Part shown: positions 5,466 through 38,621 of the stretch, one piece after another
Layout: each line of letters opens with the position of its first letter
Numbering within the stretch: position 1 is the stretch's first letter
NCBI RefSeq assembly: GCF_036250735.1
Contig: NZ_CP109430.1
Span: 7,068,001 to 7,132,000, forward strand
Source of the DNA: Streptosporangium sp. NBC_01495
GTDB taxonomy: Bacteria; Actinomycetota; Actinomycetes; Streptosporangiales; Streptosporangiaceae
Direction: 5' to 3'
DNA length: 64,000 nucleotides
Translations under genes and position numbers: made by a program
Notes under the pieces: model-generated
What the model was told of the DNA's origin: nothing
Seen by the model: only the letters and a program-made list of their open reading frames with translations
Database searches by the model: none

Positions 5466-7430
5466 ATGCGCGGGCTGTACCGGGTGATCCCGACGGTGAC
5501 GCCCGTCCAGAGCCGGGTGGCGGCGGTGGTGGCCGCCGCCGCGTCCGTGGCGATGGAGTGCGTCAACATCTGGGTCACGGCGCAGCTCCCGCAGCCCTCC
5601 TACACGCCGCTGCCGTTCGCGCCCGAGGACGTGGCCGGCGCCGCGTTCCCCGTCCTCGGGGCGCTGCTGGTCTTCCAGCGGCCCCGGCTGGTCATCGGCT
5701 GGCTGCTCTGCCTGGGCGGGCTGTGCTCCGCGCTGAACAGTCTCACGGTGAACCTGGCGCTCCTGGACACGGCGCGGGAGTGGGCGGTCCCGCCGGAGGC
5801 GATCTGGGCGGTCGCCGGGGTGAGCTGGAAGCTGACCATCCTCTTCCTGGTCGTGCTGCTGCCGATGCTCTACCCGGACGGGAGGCTGCCCTCCCCGCGC
5901 TGGCGGGCGCTGGTCTGGGTCTCCGTCGCCGTCCTGGGCGCCGACGTGCTCGTCATGGACCTCCTGCCCCTCTCCGGGCTGCGGTACACGAGCCTCGCCC
6001 CCCACCCGCTGCGGTTCTCGCTGGACATGCTCACCAACGCGGTGATGATCCTGGCCTTCGCCTCGCTGGCCACCCGGTTCCGGCGGGCCGGCCGCGAGGA
6101 GCGCGGGCAGATCCTCTGGACGCTGGTCGCGATCGCCACCGTCATCGTCCCCTGGGTGATCGGCAATCCGGTGTGGTGGCTGGCGTCGTTCACGATCCCG
6201 CTGGTCCCGGTCGCGATCACCTTCTCGGTGCTGCGGCACCGCCTGTACGGGATCGACACGCTCATCACCAGGGCGCTGGTCGGCGCGGGCCTGGTCGGCG
6301 TGATCGGCGGGGTGTACGTGGCGGTAGGCACCGCCTCCAGCCTGTTCCTGTCGGACGTGGACCGGATCGGCGGCCTGTTCGCCGCGCTCTGCGCGGGGGC
6401 GTTCCTCCACCCGATGCGGCGGATGCTCCAGCGCGGCGCCGACCGCCTCCTGTACGGCAGCAAGGGCGACCCGGTGGCGCTGGCCGCCGAACTCGGGCGC
6501 AGGATCCAGCGCACCGATCCCGCGGGCGGGCTGGCCGCGACCCTGGACGTGCTGCGCGACGGCCTGGCGGTCACCGGTACCGGCGTGCGCTTCCAGGGCG
6601 GCTGGCCCGAGGAGGCGACGGTGGGAACGCTGGAGGAGGTGACGCGCGACATCCGGCTGGTCTGGCACGGCGAGCCCGTCGGCCGCCTGCTCATCGGCCC
6701 GCCGGGGGCCCGGCGCCTGCCCGCCGCGCACAACGAGCGGGTCATCGCCGCGCTCACGCCGTACGTGGCCGACGCGGCCCACGCGGTCCGGCTGGTCGGC
6801 GCGCTGCGGCGCTCCCGGGAGCGGATCGTCACCACCCGCGAGGAGGAGCGCCGCCGCCTGCGCCGCGACCTGCACGACGGCCTCGGCCAGTCGCTCAGCG
6901 GGATGGCGATGTCCATCAACGCGGCCAGGCTCTCCCTGCGCGCCTCCCCCGAGACGGCCGAACGCATGCTCGGCGAGCTGCGCTCCGGCATGGACAGCGT
7001 CACCAGCGACATCAGGCACCTGGTGTACGGCCTGCGTCCGCCGGCGCTGGACGACCTCGGCCTGGCCGGGGCCGTGGCGGAGATGGCGGGCCCCGGCGTC
7101 GCCGTCGAGGTCAGGGGCGAGCTGCCGGGGCTGCCCGCCGCGACCGAGGTCGCCGCGTACCGGATCGTGCAGGAGGCGCTGACCAACGCGCGCAAGCACG
7201 CCGGAGCGGCGACGGTGCGGGTGTCGCTGGAGCGGGGCGAGGACGACCTGAGCATCCGGGTGCGCGACGACGGGATCGGCGTACCCGCCGGGCGTCGCTC
7301 GGGGGTCGGGCTGGCGTCGATGCGCGAGCGCGCCGCCGAACTGGGCGGGACATGCGTGATCACAACGCCCCCCGAGGGGGGAACCGTGGTCGAGGCGATA
7401 CTTCCGGTGAACTTGAATGTGGAGATCTGA
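5466..7430 (+). CDS. Membrane sensor histidine kinase, NarL/HisKA_3 type (kinase 1)
   Basis: The 654-aa protein has several hydrophobic segments over about residues 15-300, then a GAF-like linker, then a HisKA_3 dimerisation domain with phosphoacceptor His470 in RRDLHDGLGQ. A C-terminal HATPase_c domain has VQEALTNARKHAG (N box), DDGIGV (G1) and GGTVVEA. It should autophosphorylate and signal to a NarL-type regulator. Such a regulator is encoded 85 bp downstream, followed by a second kinase of the same architecture. The ligand is unknown. The start ATG has AAGGG 11 nt upstream. Confidence 0.9.
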   Translation: MRGLYRVIPTVTPVQSRVAAVVAAAASVAMECVNIWVTAQLPQPSYTPLPFAPEDVAGAAFPVLGALLVFQRPRLVIGWLLCLGGLCSALNSLTVNLALLDTAREWAVPPEAIWAVAGVSWKLTILFLVVLLPMLYPDGRLPSPRWRALVWVSVAVLGADVLVMDLLPLSGLRYTSLAPHPLRFSLDMLTNAVMILAFASLATRFRRAGREERGQILWTLVAIATVIVPWVIGNPVWWLASFTIPLVPVAITFSVLRHRLYGIDTLITRALVGAGLVGVIGGVYVAVGTASSLFLSDVDRIGGLFAALCAGAFLHPMRRMLQRGADRLLYGSKGDPVALAAELGRRIQRTDPAGGLAATLDVLRDGLAVTGTGVRFQGGWPEEATVGTLEEVTRDIRLVWHGEPVGRLLIGPPGARRLPAAHNERVIAALTPYVADAAHAVRLVGALRRSRERIVTTREEERRRLRRDLHDGLGQSLSGMAMSINAARLSLRASPETAERMLGELRSGMDSVTSDIRHLVYGLRPPALDDLGLAGAVAEMAGPGVAVEVRGELPGLPAATEVAAYRIVQEALTNARKHAGAATVRVSLERGEDDLSIRVRDDGIGVPAGRRSGVGLASMRERAAELGGTCVITTPPEGGTVVEAILPVNLNVEI

Positions 7431-30150: not shown

Positions 30151-32193
30151 CTACTCCGCGCCGTCTCGCCTGTTGAGTTTGGCCAGGTAGTCATTATAGG
30201 CGTCGAGCTGGGCGTCGCCACTGCCACCGTCGCGGGCCGCGGCGGCGTCGGCGCGGCGATCGGCGCGGCGGGCCCCGCGATCGTCGTGACGCCACCACTG
30301 GAAGGCCAGCGCGAGGAGCACGATGAGGGTCGGGATCTCGCCGAACCCCCAGGCGATGGCGCCACCGGTCTGCTGGTCCTCGACCGCGGACGCGCCCCAG
30401 GTGCGGCCGAGCTGGTCGTACCAGTCGGAGGCCAGCACGGTGGTCATGCTCATCAGCGCGATGCCGAAGAACGCGTGGAACGGCATGGTCACGAACAGCA
30501 GGATGAGCCGGGCCACGTGCGGCAGCCGGTAGGGGGCGGGATCGACACCGATGATCACCCAGAAGAACAGGGTCCCGCTGAGCAGGAAGTGCACCGTCAT
30601 CACGATGTGGCCGAGGTGCTCCTCCATCGCGGCGGCGAACAACGGGGTGAAGTACAGCGCGTAGGTGGAGACGATGAAGATCGCGGTGGCGATCGCCGGA
30701 TGGGCGATGAAGCGGACGAACCTGCTGTGCAGGATCGTCGTCAGCCACTCCCGGGGCCCCCGGTCGCCCCTGCGGGCGGCGGGCCGCAGGGCGCGCAGGG
30801 CCAGGGTGACGGGCGCGCCGAGCACGAGGAAGATCGGCACCATCATCGACAGCGTCATGTGCTCGGCCATGTGCGCGCTGAACAGCACCTTGGCGTAGCG
30901 GGCGACGCCGCTCTGGGTGGCGACCAGCAGGATCAGCACACCGGTGAACCAGGCGGCCGTGCGCCCCTTGGACCAGGCGTCGCCGCGCCGGGCGAGCCGT
31001 ACGACACCGGCGAGGTAGAGACCGGCCAGCAGGGCGATGAGCGTGCCGGAGAACAGGTCGAACCACCACAGCGAGGCCAGGTTGGCCAGCGAGATCTCCG
31101 GCGGCATGGTGTAGCCGAGCACCTCGAAGGCCCTGTCGACGGGCAGGACCGCCGGAGGCGGCGCGGTGCGGGACAGCGCGACGGCCAGCCCGACGGCCGC
31201 GAACATGACGACGATCTCGCCGGTGGCGAAGCGGAGGAACGTACCGGACCCGCCCGCCGCGAGCAACGGCAGGGTGCGCCTGCGGTGCCACCAGCCGACG
31301 GCGCCGAGCAGCGCGAACGCGACGGTCTTGGCCAGCAGCAGCAGGCCGTAGGCGGAGGTGAACAGCTCGGAGAGCGCGCTGAGCCTGGCCATCACGCTGA
31401 ACAGGCCGGACAGCCCCACCCCGATGAAGCACCACAGCGCCAGGGCCGAGAACCGGGCGGCGGCGATCTCCAGGTGCGGCTGACGGCGCAGCGCGTGCAC
31501 GCAGAGCACACCGAGGCCGCCCACCCAGAGCGCGAGGACGACCAGGTGGACGGCGACGCCCGTGGTGGCCAGGTCGTGGTTGGGCGAGGAGGCGGAGTGG
31601 CCGGTCAGCGCGGGCGGGAGCATGGTGGCCAGGGCGAGGACCAGCAGGCCGCCGGCCGCGCCGGCGGTGATCGCCCCGCGGGCGAAGAGCGCGATCGCGA
31701 CCGAGAACAGCACGACCAGGGTCAGCGCGATGCCCTGGGAGACCTGGCTGGCGAAGCTGGTGAGCTCGTCGCCGCCGAGCACGTCGGCCACCGGCAGCCC
31801 GAGCGCCTCCGAGAGGCTGAACACCATCGTGGCGGCGGCGGCCCCGGCCCAGACGAGGGCGACCCAGGAGGCGGCCTTGACGTAGCCGAGGGCGGATTTG
31901 CCCAGCAGGCCCTTGTCGTTGGGGAGCAGGAACGTGGCGGCCAGGAGTGTGCCGACGGTGAGCACGCCCGCCGCGTCCATCGCCAGCTTCGCCAGCGGCA
32001 GACCCCAGCGGGTGAAGGAACCCTGGTCGGGCAGGCCGGGGATGATGCGCGGACTCGCGGCACCTCCGGCGATCATGGCGATCACCAGGGCGGCGACGGC
32101 CGCCGCCGCGCCCGCGAGGGCGAGCTTCACGGCCCGGCCGTTCCCCGGCGCCTCGACCTGTGCCGCCTGCGCGGCCCGCGCGATCTTGCTCAT
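30151..32193 (-). CDS. CopD-CtaG fusion membrane protein (copper import / oxidase assembly)
   Basis: The 680-aa protein has about 15 membrane segments. The N-terminal half is a CopD-type copper transport domain (VHLVVLALWVGGLGVL, then GLSGLFSVMARLSALSELFTSAYGLLLLAKT). The C-terminal half is a caa3-type CtaG domain (FSAHMAEHMTLSMMVPIFLVLGAPVTLA, with TVHFLLSGTLFFWVIIGVDP and MPFHAFFGIALMS). His and Met residues in these spans are plausible copper ligands. The ATG at 32193 overlaps the copC stop by 4 bp (ATGA), so the two are co-translated. The role is inferred to be copper delivery for cytochrome c oxidase. Confidence 0.93.
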   Translation of the reverse strand: MSKIARAAQAAQVEAPGNGRAVKLALAGAAAAVAALVIAMIAGGAASPRIIPGLPDQGSFTRWGLPLAKLAMDAAGVLTVGTLLAATFLLPNDKGLLGKSALGYVKAASWVALVWAGAAAATMVFSLSEALGLPVADVLGGDELTSFASQVSQGIALTLVVLFSVAIALFARGAITAGAAGGLLVLALATMLPPALTGHSASSPNHDLATTGVAVHLVVLALWVGGLGVLCVHALRRQPHLEIAAARFSALALWCFIGVGLSGLFSVMARLSALSELFTSAYGLLLLAKTVAFALLGAVGWWHRRRTLPLLAAGGSGTFLRFATGEIVVMFAAVGLAVALSRTAPPPAVLPVDRAFEVLGYTMPPEISLANLASLWWFDLFSGTLIALLAGLYLAGVVRLARRGDAWSKGRTAAWFTGVLILLVATQSGVARYAKVLFSAHMAEHMTLSMMVPIFLVLGAPVTLALRALRPAARRGDRGPREWLTTILHSRFVRFIAHPAIATAIFIVSTYALYFTPLFAAAMEEHLGHIVMTVHFLLSGTLFFWVIIGVDPAPYRLPHVARLILLFVTMPFHAFFGIALMSMTTVLASDWYDQLGRTWGASAVEDQQTGGAIAWGFGEIPTLIVLLALAFQWWRHDDRGARRADRRADAAAARDGGSGDAQLDAYNDYLAKLNRRDGAE

Positions 32194-32807
32194 GGCTGCT
32201 TCCTGCCGCGCATGCTGAAGAACAGGCCGATGCCGATGCCGGTCAGGCTGCCGACGACGATCCACATCCAGCCTGGCACGCCTCCCGAGGAGCCTGGCTC
32301 CTCGGACTCCCCGGCCGCGGCGGCCGGGCTGAGCGTGGCCACCGGTGTGCTCGCGACCTGTGTGCTCGCGGCCGGGTCACTCCCGGCGGCCGTGCTCCCG
32401 GCGGGCTCGGGAGACGTCGAGGACGGTGACGGAGAGGAGTCGGCGGAGCCGAGCAGGGTGAAGGGGATCTCCCCCTCGATCGGGTGGCCGTCGGAGGACA
32501 CCACGCGGTAGGCGATGACGTACTCGCCGGGAGGGAGATCTCCCTTGACCTTCTGGGTCACCACGGGGCCGTCGACGGCGGGCTTGCCGTCCTGGTGGGT
32601 TTCGTCTCCGGAGCGCACGACGACGTTCGGGAAGCGCACTCCGGCGCTGAACGTCAGCTTCACCTCCTCCAGACTCTCGACCTTCGCTCCCTTGGCCGGG
32701 TCACTGCTCTTGAGCCGGTCGTGGGCGAGGGCGGGCGAGGCGAAGGCCGTGCCGAGAACGAGGGCGGCGAGAAGCGCGAGGGCGACCGCGACAGGGGAAG
32801 TCTTCAT
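32190..32807 (-). CDS. CopC-domain copper-binding protein, membrane anchored
   Basis: The 205-aa exported protein has a signal peptide ending ASPALA, leaving His29 as the mature N-terminus (HDRLKSSDPAKG), the classic CopC copper ligand. A second ligand region is SSDGHPIEGEIPF. A Ser/Thr/Pro/Ala linker (about 130-170) leads to a C-terminal membrane helix (WMWIVVGSLTGIGIGLFF) and basic tail. It should bind copper outside and hand it to the CopD-CtaG protein encoded by the overlapping downstream gene. Confidence 0.93.
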   Translation of the reverse strand: MKTSPVAVALALLAALVLGTAFASPALAHDRLKSSDPAKGAKVESLEEVKLTFSAGVRFPNVVVRSGDETHQDGKPAVDGPVVTQKVKGDLPPGEYVIAYRVVSSDGHPIEGEIPFTLLGSADSSPSPSSTSPEPAGSTAAGSDPAASTQVASTPVATLSPAAAAGESEEPGSSGGVPGWMWIVVGSLTGIGIGLFFSMRGRKQP

Positions 32808-32896: not shown

Positions 32897-34189
32897 CTAC
32901 AGTCCGACGCAGGCCATCGCCCGTTTGTAGGCGTCGACGCTCCGGTCGGGCTCGTCGATCCGCTCCAGGACCCGGGCCGCGGTCAGCCAGGCGTGGGCGG
33001 TGAAGCGGGTCTCCGGCGCCTGCCCCAGACATTCGGCCCCGGCGAGCAGCTCCCGCGAGGCGTCCGCCTGCATGCCCAGCGCCGCGAGGGTCTCGCCGTG
33101 CAGCAGCCGGGCCTCCGCCTGCAGGACCTTGGGCATGCCGTCGAGCAGGTCGCAGACGAAGCGCATGTGCTCCTCGGCCCGCTCGGGCTGGGCGAGCAGC
33201 AGCTCCACCCGGACGAGGTTCATCGCGCAGCGCATCTTGTCGATCGAGCTGGCGGCGCTCTCCGCGAGCTCCCTCTCCGCCTTCAGCAGCACGTCGCGCC
33301 AGGTCTTGGCCTCCATGGGCCGGACGATCAGCAGGACCTGGGCGTAGTCGCTGCGCAGCCGGGCCAGCCGTCGCGGGTCGCCGTACTCGGACTGGATGGC
33401 CAGGGCGCGCTCGACGTGCGTGACCGCCTCGTCGGCGTAACCTGCCTCGACGGCGGCGATCGCGGCTTCCCAGTGTGCCAGGGTGAGCGCCTGCGGGCTG
33501 GCGAGGAGCTCGGCGGCGGCGATCAGCTCGCCGGCGAACTGGCGGGCCCGGAGCAGGTCACCGCGGTCGATGTAGGCGGCGAGGAGCTGGCCGCCCAGCC
33601 TCATGAGGCCGTCGGTCCAGGCGGGCCGGACCGGGCCGGTGAGGATCTGCTCGGGAACCTGCATCGCCCGTGCCAGGTCCCCCTTCTCGCGGTAGCAGCG
33701 CGAGAGCGCGACGGCGACCGCGACGTGACGCTCGGGGCCGGTGACCGCCTCGTCGTTCTCGCGCAGCCCGTTGAGCAGGACGATCGCCTGGTCCAGATCG
33801 CCACAGGCCTCGGTCGCGAGGGCCAGGCCGTACTCGACGTCCTGTCGCATCTGGGGCAGGCCCGCCAGGCCGCTGTCGGCGAGGAGCTCGGCGTAGCGGG
33901 TGCGCGCCTCGACGACCTCGCCGTTGTTCAGGGCCATCTGCGCGTAGCTCAGCGCGAGCTCGATCTCCTGCATCTGCTCGGCCGTGACGCCGTTGATCAG
34001 ATATGTCAGGGAACAGTCGAGTTTTTCGGCGAGGAGCTCCAACACGGCGGGTGTCGGAGTACGCTTGCCACTCTCGATGAGAGAGACGTAACTGTCCGAC
34101 AGTTCTGGATGAGCGAGCTGCGCCTGAGAAAGACCACGTTGCCGACGGACGGTTTTGATGCGCTGCCCCACCAAGTCTTGACCAGTCAC
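32897..34189 (-). CDS. XRE-TPR regulator (RRNPP-like architecture)
   Basis: The 430-aa cytosolic protein has an N-terminal XRE helix-turn-helix (RIKTVRRQRGLSQAQLAHPE, then SDSYVSLIESGKRTPTPAVL, about residues 8-62). Around 360 residues of helical TPR-like repeats follow (for example ARTRYAELLADSG, AVALSRCYREKGDLARAMQV, AHWEAAIAAVEAGYADEAV, ASRELLAGAECLGQAPE). This is the layout of Rgg/PlcR/NprR-type receptors for imported peptides. The start is GTG 34189 with AAGGGG upstream. A 58-aa exported peptide gene is divergently encoded only 55 bp away. Peptide control is inferred from architecture and neighbourhood, not shown. Confidence 0.88.
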   Translation of the reverse strand: MTGQDLVGQRIKTVRRQRGLSQAQLAHPELSDSYVSLIESGKRTPTPAVLELLAEKLDCSLTYLINGVTAEQMQEIELALSYAQMALNNGEVVEARTRYAELLADSGLAGLPQMRQDVEYGLALATEACGDLDQAIVLLNGLRENDEAVTGPERHVAVAVALSRCYREKGDLARAMQVPEQILTGPVRPAWTDGLMRLGGQLLAAYIDRGDLLRARQFAGELIAAAELLASPQALTLAHWEAAIAAVEAGYADEAVTHVERALAIQSEYGDPRRLARLRSDYAQVLLIVRPMEAKTWRDVLLKAERELAESAASSIDKMRCAMNLVRVELLLAQPERAEEHMRFVCDLLDGMPKVLQAEARLLHGETLAALGMQADASRELLAGAECLGQAPETRFTAHAWLTAARVLERIDEPDRSVDAYKRAMACVGL

Positions 34190-34206
34190 GTTACCCCTTG
34201 AAAGAT
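34178..34206 (+). promoter_or_regulatory. Possible promoter of the small exported peptide gene
   Basis: TTGACC (34178-34183) and the weak hexamer AAAGAT (34201-34206) are 17 bp apart. Transcription would start near 34213, inside the 55-bp gap and about 30 nt before the peptide GTG. The element overlaps the start codon of the divergent XRE-TPR regulator, so the two genes could be cross-controlled. Confidence 0.35.
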
Positions 34207-34244
34207 ATCATTTGAGCAGCAGAACCTACGACAGGAGTCTCCCC

Positions 34245-34421
34245 GTGCGCCGACGTCTTGCCTTGTCTGCCCTCGCCATGCTATTTACGGCCACTTTTGC
34301 CGTCACTAGCAATGTTACGACCGAGAGTGCTGATTCGTCTGCCCCCCCGAAGGACACCGGCAAGTATTCTTTGCAGGCGAACGTCGCCCAGTCCAACCTG
34401 GGCTGGGGACACGCGGACTGA
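34245..34421 (+). CDS. 58-aa exported peptide, candidate signal precursor
   Basis: GTG 34245 is preceded by AGGAG at seven bases. The peptide begins with three arginines, has a hydrophobic core (LALSALAMLFTATFAV), then a polar mature part ending GKYSLQANVAQSNLGWGHAD. That is the form of a Sec-exported pro-peptide with a C-terminal active segment. An in-frame TTG at 34212 would add 11 residues. It is divergent from the XRE-TPR regulator and followed by hairpins rather than another gene. A pheromone role is inferred; it could also be a small secreted structural peptide. Confidence 0.6.
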   Translation: MRRRLALSALAMLFTATFAVTSNVTTESADSSAPPKDTGKYSLQANVAQSNLGWGHAD

Positions 34422-34517
34422 GCGGCGGCTCAGGCCACCGCGAGGACAAGGAACACAAAGAACCCCGCCCGCCCCAGTGGAGAGCTTTCAGCCAGCGAGC
34501 GGCTCCACCTGGCGGAA

Positions 34518-34566
34518 CCGGTGCGATCGCACCGGCGTGAGCGTGCAGGCGTCCGTCATGCACGCT
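34518..34566. repeat. 18-bp perfect palindrome plus adjacent inverted repeat
   Basis: CCGGTGCGATCGCACCGG (34518-34535) is fully self-complementary. Right after it, AGCGTGCA (34540-34547) and TGCACGCT (34559-34566) form an inverted repeat with an 11-nt loop. They lie about 100-145 bp after the exported-peptide stop and could be operators or a terminator. Confidence 0.6.
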
Positions 34567-34636
34567 CCGGCGAGGCGGGACAGCTGAACACCGGGGCGTC
34601 CGCGCCCCCGGATTGGGTGCCACCGATCGCGGCCGC

Positions 34637-35010: not shown

Positions 35011-35224
35011 TTGTCGTGGACACAAAGAAAGCTTTCGGCCAAGTCGGTTCACGGAAAACCGGAAATGTGGCCCGCCCGTCGGGAAAGCCCGAAAACATGA
35101 TCCGCCCGCGGGAAACCCACGGGCGCGATCCGCTCTCAGCCCCGTCTCCGCCTCGGCTTCCCCCGGTTTCCGCCCCTCCCGCCCCGGCGCGCGCGGCTCT
35201 CCCCCCTCGCCCGTCTCCCCCGTC

Positions 35225-35264
35225 GTGGAACGCCTCGGGAACCCGTGGAACGCCTCGGGAACCC
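35225..35264. repeat. 20-bp unit in two perfect tandem copies
   Basis: GTGGAACGCCTCGGGAACCC is present at 35225-35244 and again at 35245-35264, about 370 bp before the SARP start. SARP proteins bind direct repeats, but usually with 11- or 22-bp spacing, so a direct link is doubtful. Confidence 0.7.
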
Positions 35265-35630
35265 GTCGCGGCGCGGCCCCGCGACACCCGCCGGAAGGAA
35301 CACCGGCGTGTTTGGTCCGGCACGGTTCGCGAGGGGCACCTGGACCACTTCCCGCCCATCCCCCCACTCTCCTGGAGAAAGGTCTCCCGCCTGGTAGGAC
35401 CGGGAGAAAACCATTCCGGGAATGGCCGCGGAGAGGGTGACGGACGAGGTGGTCGGCCGCCCGCCGGGATCGGCCTCCCGCGCCGTACGCCGCCGCCCGG
35501 CACCGCGACGGAGCGGATGGGCGGGCGGGGCGCGCTCCTGGCGGTTCGCGGGAAATCCTGCGTCACGAACTCGTCGGCTAGTGTCTTCTCCACGACTTCG
35601 CTGCGCCATGCCCGACCGCGTGGAGGTCTG

Positions 35631-38621
35631 ATGGACGAGACGCACGCCACCGCCCCCGTCGGGGAGGACCTCCCGGCCGGGAGGCTCGGCATTGACATCC
35701 TGGGAACCGTGACCGGCCGGCGGGGTTCGCAGAGGCTCGACCTGGGAGAGCCCAGGCAACAGGCCGTCCTCTGCGTCCTGGCGATCAACGCCGGGCAGGT
35801 GGTCACCAAGGACAGGCTGATCGACGCGGTGTGGGGAGAGAGCCCGCCGAAGACGGCCGGACAGAGCGTCTACACATACGTGTCCAGGTTGCGGAGAACC
35901 CTGGACCCCGGCCGGGATCCGCGCAGGCCCTCAGGGGTGCTGGTCTCCGTCTCCGGCGGATACTCGCTGCGCCTCGCGCCGGAGCAGGTGGACGCCCTGG
36001 TGTTCGAGCAGCGTCTTGACCAGGCCGGGAAGGCACGCGCGGAGAACGCGTACGAGACCTCCATGCGCTCCCTGGACAGGGCCGCGGAACTGTGGCGGGG
36101 CACCTGTCTGAGCGGGATTCCCGGCCCGTTCGCCGAGCTCGAGCGGCACAGGCTGAGCGGGCTGCGCCTGACCGCGCTGGAACTGCACGCGGACCTGTTG
36201 CTCCTGCTCGGGCGTCCCCAGGAGGCCGCCGCCCGGCTGGTCCTGCTCACCTCCGAGCACCCGCTGCGCGAGCGGCTCCGCGAGCTGTACATGATCGCGC
36301 TCTACCGCTGCGACCGGCAGGTGGAGGCCCTGAGGGTCTACCAGGAGACCCGGCGCCTGCTCATGGAGGAGTTCGGCGTCCAGCCGCACGAGAGCCTCCG
36401 CAGGTGCCACGAGCTGATCCTGCGCGCCGACCCCCTGCTGGGCCCGCCCTCGGCGCCCCTCCCCTCCCCGGAGCCGATCCCCTCCTCCGGGCCCTCCCTT
36501 GAGCCGGACGCCCGCGAGCGGAGATCCCCGGACTCGCGGCGCCGTACGGCCGAGAGGACGAAGGTGGCCCGCCAGCTGCCGCGCGACCCCGTCGACTTCG
36601 TCGGACGCGCGGAGGAGCTCGCGCGGCTGAGGGCGCTGCTCTCCCCCCGGGACGGCGCCCCGCCCCATCACGTCGTCGCGATCACCGGAGCGCCCGGATC
36701 CGGCAAGTCGACCCTGGCGGTCCGGGCCGCGCACATGGTCCGCGACCGCTTCCCCGGCGGGCAGCTGTACGTGAACCTGCGCGGGGCGACGCCGGGCATG
36801 AGGCGGCTCCAGCCGATCGAGGTGCTCGGCAGGTTCCTGCGTGACCTCGGCACGCCCCCGCACGCCGTCCCCGCCGACGTCGACGAGGCCGCGGCCCTGT
36901 GGCGCGGCGAGCTCGACGGCCGCGAGATCCTCGTCGTGCTGGACGACGCCGCGGATCTGGCCCAGATCCGCCCGCTGCTGTCCGTGCCGATGGGCAACGC
37001 GATCCTGACGACCAGCCGGGAGAGCTTCACCCTGCTCGACGACTGCGCCCGCGTACCGATCTCCGGGATGCGGCGGGCCGAGTCCTCCGCGATGCTCACG
37101 AAGCTGATCGGGGCGGAGCGGGCCGCCGAGGACCCACGGGCGACGATGCGCCTGATCGACCTCTGCGGAGACCTGCCGCTGGCCGTCGGCATCGCGGGAG
37201 CCCGGCTGGCGAACCGGCCGCGCTGGAACGTGACCGACCTGGTGAGCCGGCTGGACGACGAGCGCGGGCGGCTGCGGGAGCTGTCGGCGGGCGATCTCGC
37301 GGTGAGATCCAGCCTGGCGGTCAGCTACGAGATGCTCGCCGGCAGCGACCACCGCCTCGACCGGACGGCCGCCCGCGCGCTGCGCGCGCTCGGCGTGCTG
37401 CAGACGGCCGACGTGACGGCGCACCTCGTGGGCGCCCTGCTGGGCGTCCCCGTGGACACGGCCGAGCACGCGATGGAACGGCTGGTCGACGCGCATCTCT
37501 CGGAGATGGACGAGCCGGGAAGATACCGGCTGCACGACCTGGTGCGGCTGTTCGCCAAGGAGCGGGTCGCCCACGAGGAGACGGAGGGCGACCGCGACGC
37601 CGCGCTGGACCGGGCGCTGAGCCTCTACCTCGGGACGACCCTCCTGGCCGTGAAGCTGTGCGGTTACCCCCGCACCGTGCCGACGGACCTGGAGCTCGGC
37701 GCGGGCCTCCTGCCGCTCGCCTCGGGCCGGCAGGCCCGCGACTGGCTCGACCAGGAGCAGGCCAACCTCGTGTCCGCCGCCTCCCAGGCGATGGGCGCCC
37801 CCGGGGAGCGGATCGCGCGCCTCGGGGCCGCCCTGGCCTTCGCGCTCTTCTGGCACCTCCAGCACGCGGGCCTCCCCGCCCGGCTCCAGTCGCTCAACCG
37901 GCAGGCGCTGTCGGTCGGGCGGCGGCTGAACGACCACCGCATCGAGGCGAACGCGCACAACCACCTCGGCAGCGCCCTGAACATGGTCGGCCGCCTCGAG
38001 GAGGCCCAGAACCACATCCGGCGGCAGCTGGTCCTTTCCCGGCGGCTGTCCGACCTGCACGGCGAGCAGAAGGCACTGGGAAGTCTCGCCATGAACTATC
38101 TCGAACTGGGCCGCTACGAGAAGGCTCTCAGCTGCGGCGAGGCGCAGCGGAAGGTCACGATGCAGGCCGGTCACGTGTCCGGCGAGCACTTCGCCCTCAC
38201 CATGATCGGCTCGGCGTACCACGGCATGCGCCGTACCGGCCAGGCGCTGGCGGTGCTGGAGGAGGCCCTGTCCAGGTGCCGCCGGGACGGCAACAGGTAC
38301 CAGGAGACGTCCGTGCACGAGAAGCTCGGCCGCGTCCACCTCGACCGGGGGGACCCCGAGTCGGCCAGAAACTCGTTCGAGGACGGTCTCGGCTGTGCCC
38401 GTGCCGTGAAGCTCAAGATCGCCGAGCCGTACCTGCTGCTCGGCCTGGCCCGCTCCTCGCGCCTCCTCGGCGAGACGGACCGGGCCGCGGCCTACCTGGC
38501 GCTCTCCCTTTCCGCCGCCCGCGCGGTGGGGAACCCGGTGGTGGAGAGGCTGACGGAGGAGGAGGCGACGATCCTGACCGCGTCCGCGAAGCCGGTCACG
38601 GCCGGCCGGGCGCGCCCGTAG
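35631..38621 (+). CDS. AfsR-type SARP regulator (BTAD, NB-ARC, TPR)
   Basis: The 996-aa protein has a winged helix (DILGTVTGRRG, IDAVWGESPPKTAGQSVYTYVSRLRRTL) to about residue 100, and a BTAD domain to about 260. A Ser/Pro linker then leads to an NB-ARC/STAND ATPase with Walker A ITGAPGSGKSTLA and Walker B ILVVLDDAAD, and a C-terminal TPR region (HNHLGSALNMVGRLEEAQNH, ALGSLAMNYLELGRYEKAL, VHEKLGRVHLDRGDPESARN). This is the full AfsR layout; such proteins often activate secondary metabolism and can be phosphorylated by Ser/Thr kinases. The ATG 35631 has GGAGG at five bases; longer in-frame extensions are non-coding. No biosynthetic cluster is adjacent. Confidence 0.93.
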   Translation: MDETHATAPVGEDLPAGRLGIDILGTVTGRRGSQRLDLGEPRQQAVLCVLAINAGQVVTKDRLIDAVWGESPPKTAGQSVYTYVSRLRRTLDPGRDPRRPSGVLVSVSGGYSLRLAPEQVDALVFEQRLDQAGKARAENAYETSMRSLDRAAELWRGTCLSGIPGPFAELERHRLSGLRLTALELHADLLLLLGRPQEAAARLVLLTSEHPLRERLRELYMIALYRCDRQVEALRVYQETRRLLMEEFGVQPHESLRRCHELILRADPLLGPPSAPLPSPEPIPSSGPSLEPDARERRSPDSRRRTAERTKVARQLPRDPVDFVGRAEELARLRALLSPRDGAPPHHVVAITGAPGSGKSTLAVRAAHMVRDRFPGGQLYVNLRGATPGMRRLQPIEVLGRFLRDLGTPPHAVPADVDEAAALWRGELDGREILVVLDDAADLAQIRPLLSVPMGNAILTTSRESFTLLDDCARVPISGMRRAESSAMLTKLIGAERAAEDPRATMRLIDLCGDLPLAVGIAGARLANRPRWNVTDLVSRLDDERGRLRELSAGDLAVRSSLAVSYEMLAGSDHRLDRTAARALRALGVLQTADVTAHLVGALLGVPVDTAEHAMERLVDAHLSEMDEPGRYRLHDLVRLFAKERVAHEETEGDRDAALDRALSLYLGTTLLAVKLCGYPRTVPTDLELGAGLLPLASGRQARDWLDQEQANLVSAASQAMGAPGERIARLGAALAFALFWHLQHAGLPARLQSLNRQALSVGRRLNDHRIEANAHNHLGSALNMVGRLEEAQNHIRRQLVLSRRLSDLHGEQKALGSLAMNYLELGRYEKALSCGEAQRKVTMQAGHVSGEHFALTMIGSAYHGMRRTGQALAVLEEALSRCRRDGNRYQETSVHEKLGRVHLDRGDPESARNSFEDGLGCARAVKLKIAEPYLLLGLARSSRLLGETDRAAAYLALSLSAARAVGNPVVERLTEEEATILTASAKPVTAGRARP

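Follow-up and report, generated by a model that had tools for sequence, protein, structure and literature searches.

A candidate RRNPP-like receptor family in actinomycetes and its putatively exported peptides

Does the actinomycete Streptosporangium sp. NBC_01495 carry a peptide-pheromone circuit comparable with those of the RRNPP receptors of Firmicutes? The question is raised by two divergent genes in a window of 64,000 nucleotides (contig NZ_CP109430.1, positions 7,068,001 to 7,132,000, in a genome of 11.1 Mb and two contigs), where a regulator with an XRE-type helix-turn-helix (HTH) domain and tetratricopeptide repeats (TPRs) stands back to back with a gene for a 58-residue peptide. A preliminary description had put the two forward as a candidate circuit. 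Comparison with relatives makes it likely, in our judgement, that the pair works like the Firmicutes systems and belongs to an actinomycete family of RRNPP-like receptors; the wider family, spread over several actinomycete families, appears to use peptides ending in Cys-Cys (CC). The original observation is confirmed, and is wider than was supposed.

The regulator and its divergent peptide gene

The elements of the pair, in window coordinates, are these:

32897..34189, minus strand: XRE HTH and TPR regulator, GTG start, 430 aa, the proposed cytoplasmic peptide receptor
34194..34199, minus strand: AAGGGG, ribosome-binding-like site for the regulator, read from the sequence
34190..34244, no strand: divergent intergenic region of 55 bp, strongly conserved in the genus
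34233..34237, plus strand: AGGAG, ribosome-binding-like site 7 nt upstream of the propeptide GTG
34245..34421, plus strand: propeptide gene, 58 aa, predicted to be exported, ending NLGWGHAD; GTG start, stop at 34421
34245..34331, plus strand: signal-peptide-like region, residues 1-29 (RRR, hydrophobic stretch, ...ESA), with the cleavage site placed by eye
34395..34418, plus strand: final 8 codons, NLGWGHAD, the candidate mature pheromone, with a Trp-motif end common to the genus

The domain layout first described for the regulator, an N-terminal XRE HTH followed by TPR-like helices, was borne out by matches to Pfam HTH_3 (E 1.8e-11, residues 11-64) and TPR_12 (E 7.5e-9) and by a structure model (mean predicted local distance difference test score, pLDDT, 87.8) with nine predicted TPR helix pairs, whose matches in the PDB include NprR, Rap and PlcR. 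The divergent open reading frame (ORF) also stands as reported, 55 bp away, with the NLGWGHAD end and an N-terminus that is signal-like by our home-made hydrophobicity rule. Its translation is VRRRLALSALAMLFTATFAVTSNVTTESADSSAPPKDTGKYSLQANVAQSNLGWGHAD; an alternative TTG start at 34212 would give 69 aa. The window peptide has no match above cut-off in Pfam or NCBIfam, and the same is true of ten relatives in NCBIfam and eight in Pfam.

Both genes are kept together among close relatives. An ortholog of the regulator, at 65-100% identity, and a small divergent ORF at the same place are found in all 16 of the same-genus genomes searched, the source genome included; the named contig matches comprise six Streptosporangium records (76-88% identity) and one of Planomonospora (71%). 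Across the genus the signal region (RRRLALSALA...ATTASADSSAP) is constant, the core is variable and the Trp-motif end is retained, as in YLGWGFPD, SLGWNHPD, RTSWSYPD, NLGWNGPD, QLGWGWPL and TGTWEWPG, and in ends of the LGWNHPD type. One species (locus L017) has GWNGPD in four tandem copies. The precursor is also present in seven loci of close genera, where regulator identity is 64-71%; at one of them, L046, its end is LGPLNNAE and has no Trp. We refer to these receptors as the Trp clade, to which L017, with SA after its motif, and L046 were assigned by hand from signal region and place.

The variable core and constant ends that had been suggested are visible at the codon level. Across nine species pairs from three groups of close species, the ratio of nonsynonymous to synonymous differences per site (pN/pS) is 0.29 in codons 1-34 of the precursor, 1.15 in the core and 0.50 in the last 8 codons; for the regulator, pN is 0.047 and pS 0.197 (nine close species pairs). 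Codons 1-34 and the last 8 are thus under purifying selection and the core is not, a pattern expected where the terminal peptide is the working part. Since the frame is kept in all 16 genomes (and in the seven close-genus loci) and is under purifying selection at both ends, its conservation goes beyond chance.

By analogy with RRNPP systems, from which all steps past translation are drawn, the precursor would leave the cell through Sec, with signal peptidase cleaving it after an AxA-like site. Proteolysis would then free a short C-terminal peptide ending GWGHAD, as the selection pattern and the tandem copies in one species suggest, and an oligopeptide permease may re-import it, the 17 SBP_bac_5 binding proteins in the genome being at most suggestive of this. 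Its proposed binding place is the concave groove formed by the TPRs of the regulator, a placement whose support is the co-variation described below. Once bound, it might alter DNA binding by the regulator at the 55-bp region, presumed to be a shared control region, and perhaps also at copC-copD targets.

Cys-Cys peptides in the wider family

The regulator was found in 167 of 250 genomes of the same family (E up to 1e-30, paralogs included) and, with or without a peptide, in 55 of 394 genomes and 24 of 137 genera of a sample of the class (E up to 1e-40); a profile, A2, matched in 61 of the 394 (E up to 1e-70). Neighbourhoods were taken from the returned loci, 80 stretches and 20 larger ones, some of them overlapping, and the census comprises the 154 distinct regulators located by tblastn in the collected loci. 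Unexpectedly, the exported ORF beside related regulators outside the Streptosporangium and Planomonospora clade, other actinomycete families included, is 39-58 aa long and has a CC end, for example ...HLMANDFPCC, ...NYTISDWCC, ...NEGPRVHCC, ...QPRSPVDMCC and, in Nonomuraea gerenzanensis, ...MTGDAGCC. No exported CC ORF occurs anywhere in the 64-kb window.

That homologous regulators would have a small exported ORF nearby holds for 124 of the 154 and fails for 30. The former comprise 89 with a divergent CC ORF, seven with a convergent CC ORF just downstream, 23 with the Trp-clade ORF (21 by rule, plus L017 and L046), four with CC-containing variants (three ending ...CCYE and, grouped with them by hand, that of the second receptor of L024, where CC is internal and 20 more residues follow) and one (L151) with a CC ORF 1.6 kb downstream, past an EAL-domain gene. 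Hydrophobic ORFs of L004, L029, L031 and L034 were judged spurious and entered as none. The 30 comprise ten paralogs on a separate branch, seven same-genus paralogs inside the Trp clade, nine rows of one Streptosporangiaceae branch, two that are the second receptor of a tandem whose other member has a peptide, and two at contig edges. An extra batch of 18 loci has at least one CC ORF in 12.

Could the small ORF be a chance frame within a conserved promoter region? It is short and overlaps other open frames. The same filter was applied to 355 other genes of these loci and gave 14 signal-peptide-like divergent ORFs, four with CC ends, each of which proved from its sequence to be the peptide of the local regulator; around 152 regulators (the 154 less two with too little upstream DNA) it gave 109 signal-peptide ORFs, of which 86 end in CC and 21 are of the Trp type. 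Distinct exported CC ORFs number 110 near regulators against two elsewhere in 842 kb, a length that includes duplicates. Of those two, one belongs to L151, and the second is found at a distance of 1.9 kb from a regulator on a Streptomyces plasmid. When each ORF is given a single start, 98 of 108 divergent precursors have a Shine-Dalgarno-like site ahead of it; for the other start codons of that strand and stretch the figure is 316 of 3666. The inferred start codons of the two genes are 50-62 nt apart in 84 of 110 divergent pairs. We give a chance frame next to no credence and have rejected it on the family-wide recurrence, the codon-level selection, the ribosome-binding sites and the excess of CC ORFs near regulators.

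At the edges of the family, no CC ORF lies within about 1 kb of the Streptomyces plasmid regulators (34-38% identity) in any of the four records covered (L179-L182, out of 14 Streptomyces records), the phage record L183 has none, and the four weak regulator matches outside the class (L234-L237) have none within loci of about 4 kb. A search for unlinked HCC peptides for the peptide-less receptors, using the pattern PRVHCC in 13 genomes, returned only two known loci, the pattern without TAG stops missing two known ones. In L181, on a plasmid of Streptomyces sp. NBC_01707, an annotated hypothetical protein (7220-7384) is an exported 54-mer, ...PVDGDLPLCC, encoded 1.9 kb downstream of a related regulator, a hint that Streptomyces plasmids carry the regulator and CC peptide system.

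Other arrangements were seen in passing. The f19 loci L228-L231 each have two different exported CC peptides per receptor, one divergent and one convergent of the ...GGSDYCC type (1668-1832 and 3382-3504 in L228), which suggests two ligands for one receptor. A third layout is seen in L227, where the exported ORF (2305-2469, with ...LLQGVPGCC at its end) precedes the regulator in the same orientation. Tandem second regulators in L025-L027 (about 36% identity) have divergent exported ORFs of another peptide type, ending ...GGGLCCYE or ...GGKCCYE.

Receptor co-variation and the alternatives

Receptor residues change with the end of the peptide. CC receptors share 92 conserved positions, and Trp-clade receptors have lost just four of these, T201, A237, N241 and N274, all on TPR A helices 4-6. 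Residue 241 is Asn in 88 of 97 CC receptors, Glu in the window regulator and Gly or Ala in most of the Trp clade. Among the 97 CC pairs, which include a distant family (89 divergent and eight counted as convergent, L151 with its ORF 1.6 kb away among these eight), E241 and a His before CC (peptide position -3) occur together in eight, neither occurs in 89, and one without the other is never seen; L153, the independent case of E241 with His, has its peptide ORF adjacent, at 27 nt. A tree made by a quick method with midpoint rooting unites the Trp rows and the seven same-genus paralogs that lack a peptide in one well-supported branch, which arises from within the CC rows. This makes it probable that peptides of the CC form came first and that the Trp type is derived in Streptosporangium and close genera.

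Several points weigh against a pheromone circuit so read. Shared ancestry could account for the four switches, since the Trp-clade receptors are a single clade; A helices hold 35 of the 92 conserved positions in any case, which gives all four a chance of about 2% of falling there (8% without the HTH). The link of E241 with His has about two origins, positions 66, 411 and 417 do nearly as well by ancestry, and E241 is also present in 11 of the 30 peptide-less receptors and in the window regulator, which has no CC partner. Those 30 of 154 themselves tell against the reading. The nine Streptosporangiaceae rows among them, in which much of the groove string is retained, are probably orthologs; they contradict a strict one-to-one rule and indicate that peptide loss does occur. 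The TPR fold is generic, with LGN, APC/C and MalT matching the model at least as well as RRNPP proteins do, and the signal peptides, here and in all relatives, were called by the home-made rule and not by SignalP. Finally, the proposed overlap of a peptide promoter with the regulator start found no backing, since a sigma-70 consensus scan of 34100-34600, blind to other promoter types, returned no site.

An alternative that takes in the neighbouring genes is that the peptide is an effector, binding thiols or copper through its CC, HCC or WCC end, its gene being controlled by the regulator with copC-copD as partners while the regulator senses something else. The genes in question, confirmed by Pfam, lie beyond the regulator:

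32190..32807, minus strand: copC (Pfam CopC), the first gene after the regulator, same strand
30151..32265, minus strand: copD-ctaG fusion (Pfam CopD and Caa3_CtaG), next downstream, start uncertain

Of the 154 regulators, 145 had enough sequence for their downstream genes to be read. At 41% identity or above, 59 of the 69 with a divergent CC ORF and all 23 of the Trp clade are followed within 2.5 kb on the same strand by copC or copD; these 82 of 92 cover most Streptosporangiaceae with the peptide. One or the other gene also adjoins six of the nine peptide-less Streptosporangiaceae rows, as in peptide-bearing orthologs. It is possible that copC is a co-transcribed output of the regulator and that there is a link with copper. 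The peptide, however, persists in 18 divergent-CC regulators below 41% identity, none of which has copC or copD; the Trp clade lacks both cysteines yet retains copC-copD; and groove residues co-vary with the peptide end. We consider an effector unlikely. Less likely again is a two-gene switch without a cell-cell signal, in which the small protein stays inside the cell or anchored in the membrane and itself contacts the regulator. Adjacency and co-variation would suit any direct binding partner, export and re-import being steps taken by analogy, but a permissive A-x-(A/G/S) site lies within residues 17-38 of 93 of 97 CC precursors (a count with no control set), C-terminal copies are in tandem in L017, and a relaxed core with a constrained C-terminus suits the release of a terminal peptide. 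A pheromone circuit remains the reading that we prefer, and frame conservation, the 124 of 154 regulators with a peptide, the variable core and the groove co-variation together support it.

A bolder and rather doubtful extension is that the C-terminal CC dithiol is the recognition element of an actinomycete peptide-signalling family. Vicinal thiols can undergo oxidation or bind metal in the extracellular space and return to the reduced state within the cell, so that such a signal would convey redox or copper state as well as population density. From this coupling Streptosporangium and its close genera would have escaped by exchanging CC for a GWxxPD-type end and re-tooling four groove residues. 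Separately, we note that Cys165 of the regulator, on helix A3 (window 33695-33697, worked out from the start codon), is kept in 87 of 97 CC and 22 of 23 Trp-clade receptors and could be relevant to thiol chemistry with CC peptides.

A single operon context for the whole family was considered and rejected, copC-copD being confined to relatives of at least 41% identity. In the f19 locus L165 the neighbours are ribonucleotide reductase, EamA and aminotransferase genes, and the same gene clusters recur in L167 and L178. In L170 (7123-8241) a DUF5685-type gene just downstream of the regulator encodes a product ending in a CC-containing run of repeats, with relatives in L171 and L176. A SARP/AfsR-like regulator (BTAD, NB-ARC, TPR) is encoded about 600 bp past the peptide gene in the window (35016-38621), and, among the genomes compared, three others also have a relative of it close to the pair.

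Relation to known peptide-signalling systems

RRNPP-type signalling is described in Firmicutes, and the present system is filed, provisionally, as working like it. In the parts consulted, PMC9765709 assigns all seven RRNPPA subfamilies to Bacillales or Lactobacillales and contains no word beginning 'actino', PMC10075063 describes actinobacterial signals as typically small molecules made by enzymes, and PMC4748050 names gamma-butyrolactones and cyclic or modified peptides for actinobacteria without mentioning RRNPP; in the corresponding parts of PMC10434017 and PMC6540685, actinobacteria are mentioned solely as producers of metabolites or within the references. Among the matches listed in an open-access literature search, with subscription papers and preprints outside its scope, no such regulator-peptide pair is described in actinomycetes. 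A receptor family whose predicted ligands can be ordered as synthetic peptides would make such signalling directly testable in antibiotic-producing actinomycetes, and the change from CC to Trp-type ends with matching groove changes would be a natural experiment in the co-evolution of ligand and receptor.

Among the closest known systems is PlcR-PapR of the Bacillus cereus group, an RRNPP system in which an exported precursor yields a C-terminal peptide. The receptors share the XRE HTH and TPR plan, and the A2 profile hits PlcR with E 2.2e-14 over residues 3-189, a stretch that takes in the HTH, with designed and other TPR proteins scoring equally well or better. They differ in that the regulator here has 430 aa and nine predicted TPR pairs, against 293 aa in the PDB chain of PlcR, and in that the peptide genes here are divergent or convergent, the ends CC or Trp-motif and the hosts actinomycetes. 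NprR-NprX differs in its peptide and host phylum, with 11% identity in the structural match. Rap-Phr, which includes tandem-repeat Phr precursors, is set apart by the action of Rap on protein targets, as far as the sources consulted describe it. The consulted part of PMC11343458 treats a peptide-anchoring Asn of Rap and tandem pheromone copies; Rap N226 may be likened, by description and not by coordinates, to N241 here, which is lost in the Trp clade and in the window regulator. The RRNPP_Detector survey, in the part of PMC10075063 consulted, covered Firmicutes and viruses, and its candidates resemble the present pairs in combining a small secreted precursor (secretion here resting on the home-made rule) with a TPR receptor of 250-500 aa as direct neighbours. 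The window pair falls within the RRNPP(A) signature on both sides: a receptor of 430 aa (range 250-500 aa) with TPRs and an N-terminal HTH, and a precursor of 58 aa (range 10-100 aa) directly beside it across a 55-bp gap.
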